In this document: positions 842 to 5,141 of the stretch, one piece after another
Numbering within the stretch: the stretch's first letter is position 1
Layout: every line of letters begins with the position of its first letter
Origin: Candidatus Mesolinea sp.
GTDB taxonomy: Bacteria > Chloroflexota > Anaerolineae > Anaerolineales > Anaerolineaceae
Assembly (NCBI GenBank): GCA_003499715.1
Contig: DNSH01000117.1
Span: forward strand, 3,384 to 9,277
Direction of reading: 5' to 3'
Length of the DNA: 5,894 nucleotides
The notes under the pieces: generated by a model
Databases searched by the model: none
Seen by the model: only the letters and a program-made list of their open reading frames with translations
What the model was told of the DNA's origin: nothing
Position numbers and translations under genes: made by a program

Positions 842-888
842 TGCCTCAAAATAAAATCTAACTATAGTGGTCATTGTTGCCTCAAAAT
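842..888. repeat. Left terminal inverted repeat of the IS, two TGCCTCA boxes
   Basis: Two TGCCTCA boxes (842-848 and 878-884) are spaced 36 bp start to start, with AACTATA between them. The inner box is extended to GTTGCCTCAAAAT (876-888) and overlaps the transposase stop codon (882-884, complement). It mirrors 2080-2125 with a 1-nt length difference. The two boxes probably act as paired transposase-binding sites, which is an inference. Confidence 0.75.
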
Positions 889-2036
889 GAACCTAACCGA
901 TCAATTTTTAAGATTCGGGCTCGTGCAGCCTGAATAGATTTCCACAGCCCAACAGGGTTGAGGGAATTATACATACTTGTCAGCTTCTCTTTGATTGCAG
1001 GGTCAACTTGGTCTGAGTCTAACACCCTTTGATAAGGAGTTTTGGCACGATCATGAATGCGATGCGTTTTGTGATCTACCACCGTCTTGCCAACTAACTT
1101 CATCACGGGCTGAAAGAAATTGACAAAGAGATGCATATCCTCATAAAGCGATCTGAGCTGGTCTAACATCTCTTGGCTCTCAAAACGGTCATAGCCCACA
1201 GCCTTGCGCACCACAGACCAATTCTTTTGTTCGATGTGGGCTTGATCATTCTTTTGATAAGGCCTGCAGCGCGTAAAGTTAATTTGATGTTGCTGACAAT
1301 AGCGTAATAGCAGACCATTGATAAACTCAGTGCCATTATCACTATCTATACCCAGTAAAGGGAAGGGTAAACGTGCTCGCAGCATATCAATGGCTTTCAT
1401 CGTCTCCTCTTGAGTTTTGGCAGGCAAAGCTAAACATTCCGTCCAGCCGGTGGCTAAATCCGTTGCACAGAGGGTATGGAGGTAAGTGCCAACGGTAGTT
1501 TCCCCACAGTGTGCAACCAGATCCACCTCCATAAAGCCTACGTGTTCCTCATCCCAAGGGGTAAAGATACGCACTTGGATTTGGCTTTTGAGCAAGCTGC
1601 CAGGCTTGGTGGTGGAAAGACCATGCTTTTTCGTGCGGTAACGACATTCTTTCAGGCAACGATCCATGGTTGCAGGGCTCATCCGCAATAAGGCTGCTTT
1701 ATGCTCCTCACTGAGCACCAACTCACCACAAGCCTCTAATCGGTCAATGAACTCTCCCATAAAGGGTTGCAAACGCTTGGAACAAATATATCCACTCCAT
1801 TCCCAGATTTGTTCCAGAATCTTGACGACGTCCCCACGATAGACTTTCTTCCTACCTGGTTTTTTATGGCTTGTCTTGCGCTTTTCATGCCGAAGTAAAT
1901 TGATAGCATATTTGCGATTGTAGCCTGTAGTTGCCACCAGTTCATCTAAGATCTGGCTTTTTTGGGTCTTCTTAGCTTTCCAGTAACGTTCCCGCACTGC
2001 AGCAATGACTTCTGCTTTACTCTTTCTGCTCATCAT
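882..2036 (-). CDS. IS transposase, DDE (rve-type integrase core), intact
   Basis: This 384-aa protein would catalyse cutting and rejoining of the IS ends. An N-terminal helix-turn-helix-like segment (about residues 5-55, with TGYNRKYAINLLRHEKR) is followed by a basic linker KKPGRKK (58-64) and a mainly helical region to about 140. The catalytic core begins near 145 (TTKPGSLLK). The acidic triad is visible: D172 in FMEVDLVAHCG, D233 in GIDSDNGTEFIN and E269 in NDQAHIEQKNW. D233 and E269 are separated by exactly 35 residues, giving a DD(35)E arrangement. The C-terminal part (about 295-384) contains LFVNFFQPVMKL. The start may be the ATG at 2036 or the adjacent ATG at 2033; a modest AAAGAAAG precedes both. 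The stop codon lies inside the left terminal repeat. The gene is antisense to infC read-through. No frameshift or internal stop is seen. Confidence 0.9.
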   Translation of the reverse strand: MMSRKSKAEVIAAVRERYWKAKKTQKSQILDELVATTGYNRKYAINLLRHEKRKTSHKKPGRKKVYRGDVVKILEQIWEWSGYICSKRLQPFMGEFIDRLEACGELVLSEEHKAALLRMSPATMDRCLKECRYRTKKHGLSTTKPGSLLKSQIQVRIFTPWDEEHVGFMEVDLVAHCGETTVGTYLHTLCATDLATGWTECLALPAKTQEETMKAIDMLRARLPFPLLGIDSDNGTEFINGLLLRYCQQHQINFTRCRPYQKNDQAHIEQKNWSVVRKAVGYDRFESQEMLDQLRSLYEDMHLFVNFFQPVMKLVGKTVVDHKTHRIHDRAKTPYQRVLDSDQVDPAIKEKLTSMYNSLNPVGLWKSIQAARARILKIDRLGSF

Positions 2037-2198: not shown

Positions 2199-5141
2199 AT
2201 GAAAAAAGTGTCTTTGAAAATTAATGTCACTATTCTGATACTATCCTTCGTTTTTCAATCTTCTTCCGCACTCGCAATCTCATGTATCAGTGCTATTGAA
2301 CCAGAAGATCAAGTCTTGAAGGAAACATTGATTCAATCTAGCCCCCCAGTTCCTGAAACGCCTGGTAAACCTGTTACTCATGAATCTACAATTTCCTCTG
2401 CGCATCTCTTAGATTCAAAAGTGCCACACGCAGATTTACTCCAAGACCCTAACCTACCTGAGGATATTCGTGCCCATTTCATTGCTCAGACAAAAAGAAT
2501 TCAAAAACTTGGTTTTTCGTTACCTACAACCGAGCAGATCGCCCAGACTCAAGCTCAGGTACAAGCATTTAACTGCACATCGGTAACTGAGGTCTCGCAA
2601 ATTGAATGCGAAGCGCTTGTCGCACTCTACAATAGCACTGATGGAGCAAGTTGGAGTTTTCGGGATAACTGGTTGGAAAATGACACTATGAGTACGTGGT
2701 ATGGAGTTGACGTTTGGGAAGGCCATATTGTGGGAATTTACCTTAGATACAACAACTTACACGGCTCTCTTCCCAGCGAAACTGGTGACTTGATCCATCT
2801 CTATTCATTAGTGATAAGTGATAATAACCTTACTGGGCGCATTCCAGAGTCTCTTATTAATCTTACGATATTAAATGAATTAGACATAAGTTATAATTTC
2901 TTTGAGACAACTGGATATAGTCAAGATCTTCTTGATTTTCTCGCTTTGAATGATCCGGATTGGTTGGAAACCCAGTATACGCCGTTTACCAGTTGCAATG
3001 ATGTGACAGAAATTCCTAAAACCGAATGTGACGCTCTGGTAGAACTTTACAACAGCACTAACGGAACAAGCTGGACGAATAATTTTCACTGGTTAACCTA
3101 CAACCCTATTGATGCCTGGTATGGAGTGTATGTAAAAGATGGCCATGTTTCGTCTATAGGCCTCCAATCCAATAATCTCGTAGGTACGATCCCTAACGCA
3201 TTGGCAAACTTGACCCAACTTAGACTACTTTACCTTACTAGTAGTAATCTCTCAGGTGAGATCCCACTTGAGTTCGGTAATCTAAGAAATCTTGAGAATT
3301 TAAGTTTTTTCAATCAAAAGTTGACTGGTAATATCCCACCATTTATTGGTGATTTGACTAAACTGAGAAGTTTGAATTTGGGATGGAACTACTTCACTGG
3401 CTCCATCCCTTCGAATTTAGGGAATCTCGCAAATCTTAATAACCTCAATCTGAGTCGTAACTATTTGACAGGTTCAATACCATCATCGTTAGCTAATTTG
3501 CCTCTTTTTCATTTGGACCTTGGAGGGAATCGGCTCACTGGTACCATCCCGCCTGAACTGGGCAACTTCAAAACTTGGATTGACATAGACTTAAGTCAAA
3601 ACCAACTGAGCGGTAGGATTCCGCCCGAGTTAGGCAACATCCGTTACCTTACAGAACTGAGACTTAATTCTAATGATCTCTATGGAAGCATTCCACCAGA
3701 GCTTGGAAATCTGTTTTTTTTGAAGTATCTTTTTCTCCATAATAACCACCTTACCAATAGAATTCCGACAAAACTTGGTAATTTGGCTAGTTTGGAAACT
3801 CTCTGGCTTGATGGTAATGATTTGGTTGGTAGCATACCGGTTAGTTTTATTAAGCTGACAGAGTTAAGAAATGTAAATGTGGTAGGTATGGATTTATGTA
3901 TACCTAATACTCCTGACTTTGTGGCATGGAGCAATGCGTTATCATGGATGTATCCATGGGGCAAACCCCCTTTTTGTGAACCACAAAATCCAAAATTCTT
4001 GATTGTTCCTTTGACATGGAAAGGATCCCAAGCCTCATTCGATCAAGCTGCTACCATTCAATTGGACAATTTTCTTGATCAAGTTCCTTTGTCGGCTTGC
4101 AGAGAAAATGTCGTCATTAATAAGTTGAACGTCTCGACTCAAAATTTCTCTACCTGGAACTGTTCTGCAAATTCATATGGCCTGACAGAAATCAAAGATT
4201 TTGTAAGAAAAAATTTGAACATTGACCCTGCTGATTACGATGTAATCCTAGGGCTTGTTGAAGACTCACCATGTAAATACGATGGCGCGAGTAATGGCGC
4301 AGATGTAATTTGGTCTTCCACAGAATACCAAATTGTGACGGCACATGAGCTTGGACATATCTATGGCCTAGAAGATCAATATTGCAGCAACCAAGCTGGC
4401 TCAACAGACCCACGTTGTAATGATGGTGACATCCAAAATGATGGGCCAATCACTGGAGATGTGAACTGGCTTAGCGCTTCTCTCCCTTACGACTGCCCTC
4501 CGAATGGGGCTCTTGATAGCACTGGTTCGAAGTGTTGTAATTTCAATGAAGCTAATCTCTGCACATCAAAGCCTTATGGGGTTTGCTGCCATGGAAACAA
4601 AAATCCAGCTGGAGGCAGATCGACCATGTCATATTCCAACGCGCCTGAACCAAGGGGCTTCGACACAATCGAGTTGGCACATCTTGACGTACACCCCAGC
4701 CTGCAATGTTCGACTGGTGCTGCGAGTAATGGATCCGAAATATTTACTACTCAAGATGAAGACACTGAACTTTTATTGGATATCAATTTGCATGTTTACC
4801 CAAATGATACTGTCAATAGTCACAGCATCACCATAACTGAAGGAAGAATAACCCAAGAATCTATCTTACTAGAAAAATCAGGTGAATATTTGTTAACGAT
4901 CCGTGGCCAGTCGAATGAAGAAATATTCGAGCAGTCATTCCAATTATATTTTGATTATTTTGGTCCAGTTTTTCTTGATGGAGATTACTCTGATATTAGC
5001 CTGGCTAAAACCGATGTCTCTTTTAGAGTTCCGTATTCCTGTCCGATGAAAATCCTGAACCTTTTCCATAATGGAGAATTGATCCATACACAAATGCTTC
5101 CGAGCCTTTGTGCAAATTACCTTCCCATTATCTTTAGGTGA
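2199..5141 (+). CDS. Exported LRR protein fused to a metzincin-like zinc metallopeptidase
   Basis: This is a 980-aa protein. Residues 1-26 form a Sec signal peptide (MKK, hydrophobic ILILSFVF, cleavage after SSSALA). LAISC ending at Cys29 could alternatively be a lipobox. After a linker (about 27-125), block 1 (126-265) has a cap with ECEALVALYNSTDGASW and about three LRRs. Block 2 (266-593) has the related cap ECDALVELYNSTNGTSW, ten 24-residue plant-type LRRs (LxxLxLxxNxLxGxIPxxLGNL) and a C-terminal cap with Cys566 and Cys593. Residues about 598-838 are a cysteine-rich peptidase domain with HELGHIYGLED: H716, E717, H720 and D726 fit HExxHxxGxxD. M810 in STMSY is a candidate Met-turn. A beta-rich tail (about 846-980) ends in NYLPIIFR. 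The likely role is an extracellular or surface protease whose LRRs bind a protein or glycan ligand; the substrate is unknown. It has its own RBS and promoter-like site and stands as a single gene. Confidence 0.85.
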   Translation: MKKVSLKINVTILILSFVFQSSSALAISCISAIEPEDQVLKETLIQSSPPVPETPGKPVTHESTISSAHLLDSKVPHADLLQDPNLPEDIRAHFIAQTKRIQKLGFSLPTTEQIAQTQAQVQAFNCTSVTEVSQIECEALVALYNSTDGASWSFRDNWLENDTMSTWYGVDVWEGHIVGIYLRYNNLHGSLPSETGDLIHLYSLVISDNNLTGRIPESLINLTILNELDISYNFFETTGYSQDLLDFLALNDPDWLETQYTPFTSCNDVTEIPKTECDALVELYNSTNGTSWTNNFHWLTYNPIDAWYGVYVKDGHVSSIGLQSNNLVGTIPNALANLTQLRLLYLTSSNLSGEIPLEFGNLRNLENLSFFNQKLTGNIPPFIGDLTKLRSLNLGWNYFTGSIPSNLGNLANLNNLNLSRNYLTGSIPSSLANLPLFHLDLGGNRLTGTIPPELGNFKTWIDIDLSQNQLSGRIPPELGNIRYLTELRLNSNDLYGSIPPELGNLFFLKYLFLHNNHLTNRIPTKLGNLASLETLWLDGNDLVGSIPVSFIKLTELRNVNVVGMDLCIPNTPDFVAWSNALSWMYPWGKPPFCEPQNPKFLIVPLTWKGSQASFDQAATIQLDNFLDQVPLSACRENVVINKLNVSTQNFSTWNCSANSYGLTEIKDFVRKNLNIDPADYDVILGLVEDSPCKYDGASNGADVIWSSTEYQIVTAHELGHIYGLEDQYCSNQAGSTDPRCNDGDIQNDGPITGDVNWLSASLPYDCPPNGALDSTGSKCCNFNEANLCTSKPYGVCCHGNKNPAGGRSTMSYSNAPEPRGFDTIELAHLDVHPSLQCSTGAASNGSEIFTTQDEDTELLLDINLHVYPNDTVNSHSITITEGRITQESILLEKSGEYLLTIRGQSNEEIFEQSFQLYFDYFGPVFLDGDYSDISLAKTDVSFRVPYSCPMKILNLFHNGELIHTQMLPSLCANYLPIIFR

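Follow-up and report, generated by a model that had tools for sequence, protein, structure and literature searches.

The 5,894 nucleotide window analysed here, from contig DNSH01000117.1 of Candidatus Mesolinea sp. (Anaerolineaceae, Chloroflexota), contains a gene for a protein in which leucine-rich repeats (LRRs) precede a peptidase domain. Its C-terminal 385 residues (596-980, the cassette) form the conserved unit, which is reused behind unrelated front domains. We consider it rather probable that the product is an LRR protein ending in a predicted exported metzincin endopeptidase, and that its LRRs likely form a binding arm that can be exchanged. The LRR-protease protein is real and unusual, and the cassette with exchangeable fronts is the more interesting fact. 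The features of the protein are listed below.

2199-5141 (+), LRR-peptidase open reading frame (ORF), 980 amino acids, ATG at 2199 with AGGAG just upstream, stop codon ending at 5141
2199-2276 (+), signal-peptide-like start, residues 1-26, predicted from hydrophobicity and an ALA end
2574-2978 (+), LRR block 1 with cap, approximately residues 126-260, from the LRR profile and pattern, limits set by eye
2994-3893 (+), LRR block 2 with cap, approximately residues 266-565, plant-type repeats, from the LRR profile, pattern and structure-sequence matches, limits set by eye
3978-4712 (+), metzincin-type peptidase domain, approximately residues 594-838, from homologues, alignment and predicted fold, 13 cysteines from residue 593 on
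4344-4376 (+), zinc-binding motif HELGHIYGLED, residues 716-726, with Q727 and Y728 directly after it, from pattern and alignment
4620-4634 (+), Met-turn STMSY, residues 808-812 (S808-T809-M810-S811-Y812), from sequence and alignment
4767-5102 (+), beta-sandwich tail, approximately residues 857-968, from predicted structure and a fold match
5118-5138 (+), C-terminal tag YLPIIFR, residues 974-980, common to most bacterial-clade members

Catalytic domain

HELGHIYGLED at residue 716 agrees with the metzincin clan consensus HExxHxx(G/N)xx(H/D) (PMC12237041, excerpt) and is followed by a downstream Met-turn with M810. About 9e-5 occurrences of HExxHxxGxxD are expected by chance per 980 residues of the same composition. 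The motif is not a chance match because it is conserved in relatives, and a chance HExxH is likewise ruled out by conservation across the aligned sequences. In the cassette alignment of 53 rows, the window row included, every row has H716, E717 and Y728; H720 is kept in 49 rows with Gln in the other four, and D726 is kept in 51 rows with Glu in two. M810 is kept in 52 of 52 rows. The HExxH helix is present in the predicted model (model positions 133-141, residues 713-721), where the catalytic domain has a metzincin fold. This domain is predicted to be of metzincin type, with predicted zinc binding and proteolysis. Of the 21 cysteines in the whole protein, 13 fall within residues 593-837.

An earlier note on this DNA, made from the sequence alone, had described a signal peptide, two LRR blocks, the zinc motif and STMSY at these residues, more than ten cysteines in the peptidase region, a zincin/metzincin layout and a beta-rich tail, and all of these were recovered. 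The note would have been refuted by the absence of the HExxH helix or by non-conserved H716, E717 and H720, and this check did not refute it: the helix is predicted, H716 and E717 never vary, and H720 is Gln in four of 53 rows.

These four rows (P0016, P0017, P0022 and P0028) keep the rest of the motif and form a single clade with support 100/100; from their sequences they are possibly inactive proteases. Such a clade, together with the commonness of substituted zincins (PMC3650047, excerpt), would suit a cassette that is non-catalytic in the window protein and gives a surface LRR protein a module for binding or structure. The zinc ligands, base Glu and Met of the window protein are all intact and nearly invariant in the family, which makes this very improbable.

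LRR blocks

In the signal-peptide-like start a KK n-region precedes a hydrophobic core (Kyte-Doolittle 2.91 over 10 residues), with ALA at the end. The LRR_1 profile matched nine stretches in the ORF (E 6.2e-27). With a relaxed pattern, two repeat units were found in block 1 (residues 180 and 204) and nine in block 2 (residues 320-535); an additional off-pattern unit near residue 368 was seen by eye only. The protein contains LxxLxLxxNxLxGxIP repeats, which we take to be the plant type, and by sequence the ectodomains of plant LRR receptors are its top matches among solved structures (best E 1e-146).

A plant-derived protease was ruled out, as the cassette relatives are prokaryotic. A type III effector was also rejected; matches to XopAC, XopAE and XopL were confined to the LRRs and far below cut-off. 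A second LRR protein in the same genome (L030, 5254-8397, minus strand) likewise has two capped LRR blocks and ends in YLPLLTR, but is without the peptidase cassette, and the search of this genome matched it only over LRR residues 226-548.

Front domains and phylogeny of the cassette

The search with residues 596-980 gave 53 proteins including the window's own, the others with 35-57% identity. Another search, with only the cassette as query, returned 19 proteins, several of them among the earlier 53. The cluster of the window protein, P0002, has 5 member sequences. Front domains were surveyed with Pfam in 41 members, the window row consisting of the cassette only. The fronts were CarboxypepD_reg (16), LRR (7), SBBP propeller (4) and FG-GAP_2, FGE-sulfatase, TSP3 and PD40 (3 each), with 56 families overall. 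P0010, P0029 and P0037 were labelled as propellers, which they presumably are from their Pfam names. PQQ-like propellers were seen by eye in archaeal members (L009, L010). Among relatives that have a source name, the labels follow the fronts: hypothetical protein, LRR protein, formylglycine-generating enzyme (FGE) or similar.

The phylogenetic tree comprised 64 of the 73 rows. The window cassette groups with the FGE-fronted P0003 and the FG-GAP-fronted P0005-P0007 (support 98/88), and the twelve-row clade around it holds eight LRR, three FG-GAP and one FGE row. Forcing the three FGE rows together was rejected by the approximately unbiased test (p-AU 1e-105), and forcing the eight LRR rows together was weakly rejected (p-AU 0.022). 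On these constraint tests domain exchange is therefore well supported for the FGE front and likely for the LRR front. The number of front changes on the tree was 18, with a shuffled mean of 36.9. This total is not counted as a robust result, unlike the FGE and LRR tests, because the front labels are coarse: TTR-like and propeller rows overlap, P0010, P0029 and P0037 have their label from Pfam names, and L009 and L010 were labelled by eye. The fusion of LRRs and protease, which the earlier note had put in the foreground, is present here, but the same cassette stands behind many fronts and its nearest kin in the tree carry FGE and FG-GAP domains.

The LRRs could instead be a pro-domain or inhibitor that keeps the protease latent and is removed after export. 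Many metzincins are made as zymogens, and the fronts of the LRR members are all N-terminal to the catalytic domain. Unrelated folds in the same position fit poorly with a single conserved latency mechanism, and latency is considered improbable. Because the same protease unit is found behind many unrelated fronts, the fronts likely aim a conserved protease at different extracellular targets. The LRRs are one front among several exchangeable ones on a metzincin cassette that has no name, is probably M64-like and whose function we infer.

In one Micrarchaeota protein (L012, 7387-9696), whose row lies outside the tree, a VWA-like domain (DxSGS) was seen by eye before the peptidase; this resembles CLCA proteins, except that there protease and VWA have the opposite order.

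Comparison with known metzincins

The M64 igalysins (BF3526, BACOVA_00663 and the Thomasclavelia ramosa IgA peptidase) have in common with the cassette the metzincin fold, predicted for the cassette, and an Asp as third zinc ligand, followed by Glu-Tyr in many cassette relatives (PMC12402451, PMC12237041, excerpts). In hhalign comparisons with the cassette M64 gave the best score of four families (59 over 90 columns). For the tail a beta domain of seven strands is predicted, a sandwich like the accessory domain of M64 but placed at the opposite end: it sits C-terminal to the catalytic domain in the window protein and N-terminal in M64 proteins of the BF3526 type. The full M64 structural-zinc set (Glu after the Asp ligand, the Met-turn Cys and two more Cys) is kept in 9 of 65 readable relatives plus P0054, thus in ten relatives, whereas the window protein has Q727, S808, D822 and E825 at these positions. 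The M64 motif has the spacing HExxHxxxGxxD (PMC12237041, PMC12402451, excerpts), whereas HExxHxxGxxD of the window and its relatives is one residue shorter. The cassette also differs from M64 in its long cysteine-rich loop and lies below the Pfam cut-off; PF09471 (M64) had no match in the window at E <= 10 and matched 2 of 18 members (best E 0.051).

CLCA_N has an HExxH...GxxDEY-type motif followed by a cysteine-rich part, akin to the cassette, but with the spacing HExxHxxxGxxDEY, which is one residue longer than in the window (PMC3650047, excerpt). By motif CLCA_N and CLCA_X are the nearest described prokaryotic relatives, with differing spacings, and CLCA domains are reported from Chloroflexi in varied architectures (same excerpt). 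PF08434 (CLCA) had no match in the window at E <= 10. The CLCA profile run over 201 phylum genomes was silent in control genomes too and is uninformative.

The protein could accordingly be a divergent M64 or neighbouring CLCA-type member with an LRR front and a zinc motif one residue shorter, and no new family. This would account for the top profile score, the M64-like tail fold, the structural-zinc ligands in ten relatives and the varied CLCA architectures in Chloroflexi. It is judged unlikely in view of the shorter motif, the missing PF09471 and PF08434 matches, the sandwich at the opposite end and the missing structural-zinc ligands of the window protein.

The M12B reprolysins/adamalysins gave the best structural Z (11.1) for the cassette model and weak Reprolysin_5 matches, and ADAMDEC1 has HExxHxxGxxD as in the window (PMC5174729, PMC4885070, excerpts). 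The usual third His of M12B is D726 in the window, with Asp in 51 and Glu in 2 of 53 rows, and no disintegrin part was recognised by Pfam. PF13688 remained below cut-off (whole protein 19.8 against 27 bits; cassette 22.9). Proteases of the M6 type (immune inhibitor A type; L053, L055) have the HExxHxxGLxD spacing and the Asp at the third ligand position, as the cassette has, but the profile similarity is restricted to 19 columns around the motif. TIGR03296 (M6) was below cut-off (14.5 against 110.8 bits), PF05547 had no match in the window at E <= 10, and NF033628 (M7 snapalysin) was below cut-off (12.9 against 300 bits). Similarity to M6 and M7, both candidates of the earlier note, is found only around the motif. 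Of its candidates M6, M7 and M64, the last comes closest in profile-profile comparison and in tail fold, though not in motif spacing.

Proposed family and function

Tentatively, we propose an undescribed prokaryotic metzincin family in Chloroflexota and archaea. It would have an M64-like core with the sandwich at the opposite end, would have been repeatedly re-fitted with LRR, propeller, FGE/lectin-like, TTR-like, TSP3 and VWA fronts, and in Chloroflexota would be held at the surface by a C-terminal YLPxxxR tag.

Several results weigh against the main reading of the cassette as an M64-like metzincin endopeptidase with exchangeable fronts. The M64-like tail rests on one fold match (rmsd, root mean square deviation, 4.2), which was not recovered with Foldseek at E <= 0.001, and no M64 protein was among the matches listed in PDB sequence searches with the tail. 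The global mode of hhalign favoured M10, and the PDB profile search gave snapalysin first with no M64 listed. In single-sequence scans Reprolysin_5 (15 of 18 members, best E 1.3e-5) and M6 (TIGR03296; 15 of 18, best E 2.5e-5) both beat M64. The polyphyly of the LRR rows is weakly supported, the FGE and LRR groups for the constraint tests were picked after inspection of the tree, and part of the family may be inactive, given the HExxQ clade.

In the proposed mechanism H716, H720 and D726 would hold the zinc, E717 would activate water and Y728 would steady the scissile carbonyl, like Y324 of the M64 protein BF3526. The sandwich would help to wall the cleft, and disulfides in the cysteine-rich loop would take the place of the structural zinc site kept by some relatives. 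The tag would anchor the protein at the surface, where the LRR arm would bring the protease to its substrate. The putative role of the LRR blocks in directing the protease is plausible, and its target likely lies outside the cell and is a protein or glycoprotein.

If the proposal is true, the cassette would stand between M64/CLCA-type proteases and the other metzincins, where it fills a gap, and would be a natural plug-in system aiming one protease at many surface targets. Domain swaps between natural fronts on one protease cassette could then test the role of LRRs or propellers on bacterial surface enzymes. Annotation would gain a family lacking from the Pfam and NCBIfam copies used, whose members are now named after their fronts. 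The literature searched was that outside subscription papers. In it, HELGHIYGL, HEIGHIYGL, GLEDEYCS and GLSDEYCS were in no paper, and no paper combined Anaerolineae, leucine-rich repeat and metalloprotease. Titles and abstract starts on metzincins with leucine-rich repeats or Chloroflexi gave no description of the cassette.

C-terminal tag

An end of the type [YFLI][LI]P[LIVFMS] is found in 34 of 39 bacterial-clade rows, 1 of 26 other rows and none of 120 M64 proteins; in 9 of these 26 the C-terminus is instead hydrophobic and membrane-like. A stricter form ends 11 of 320 frames (at least 150 residues, loci at hand), with 0.3 expected from internal positions. Eight of the 11 are from reprolysin-type loci, and the 11 are not independent cases because several are near-copies. 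The YLPxxxR-type end is possibly an unrecognised sorting tag, judging by this pattern of occurrence. Listings of papers on C-terminal sorting in Chloroflexi showed nothing on the tag.

[YF]LP(L/V/I)xxx ends were seen in the window protein and in L030, L036, L040, L042, L044, L045, L046, L049 and L051. The tag recurs on unrelated exported proteins of the Chloroflexota group, in some reprolysin-type ones after a Thr/Pro-rich stretch.

Distribution

Scanning genome contigs with alignment A2 gave eight loci, from one Chloroflexota metagenome-assembled genome (MAG) and seven archaeal MAGs (Methanophagales, Methanoregula, Nanoarchaeota, Aenigmatarchaeota, Woesearchaeota, Micrarchaeota and one unassigned archaeon), where the window cassette alone gave no locus. 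Two bacterial-side homologues have an organism name, Anaerolineaceae and Chloroflexota. Of 147 family-group genomes, many of them incomplete, two matched: the window's own and G430 (locus L074), the latter weakly, at 30% identity, in a frame of 310 residues that reads HELGHTFGLCDEY. Across the full cassette only the window's own genome matches in the 400-genome phylum scan. The tally of 11 of 400 genomes does not serve as a prevalence: of the 10 other genomes, 9 align with the front columns only (profile positions 6-217) and the tenth, G073, with the HExxH part only. The proteins of G430 L074 and G073 L020 (HETGHIFGALDEY) are short or differently built and, by sequence, may belong to the same superfamily as more distant members. 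None of 550 pattern stretches in viral contigs was a relative, and no cassette match was found in plasmid records.

Genomic neighbourhood

376-834 as listed, translation initiation factor IF-3 gene (infC), TTG start at 376
882-2036 (-), insertion sequence (IS) IS481-like transposase, NF033577 46.9 bits, below the cut-off of 224

The IS481-like element lies between infC and the LRR-peptidase gene, and partial copies with 84-88% identity are found on contigs C13 and C78. No inverted repeats of at least 14 bases were found around it; short matches of about 13 bases at its ends, GTTGCCTCAAAAT and its complement, were noticed only by eye. In eight of nine same-genus loci infC is followed by an rpmI-like ORF, with an rplT-like ORF also present in seven of the eight by pattern and in the eighth by eye.

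The join of infC, IS element and LRR-peptidase gene may have come about by rearrangement or as a chimera of the assembly, and the ORF itself is unaffected. It is quite possible, if short of probable, that a chimera or IS-driven rearrangement has placed the gene after infC, where it would not naturally lie. The IS element found here in place of the rpmI-like ORF, its partial copies, and the single weak cassette match elsewhere in the 147 family-group genomes agree with this, as does rplT, which was not found in the window's own genome (57% complete; search without a positive control). A true IS insertion with gene gain would look identical, and the ORF is intact and its cluster P0002 has several member sequences.

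The infC frame is open upstream to ATC 319, which follows AGGAG, and IF-3 of relatives begins there too (ISSKQEYRVNERIR). The infC start is therefore very likely ATC 319, upstream of the listed TTG. Rare start codons are known for infC. On the same contig, the gene between thrS and infC (L029, 2109-3449, minus strand) holds a masked (N) stretch.
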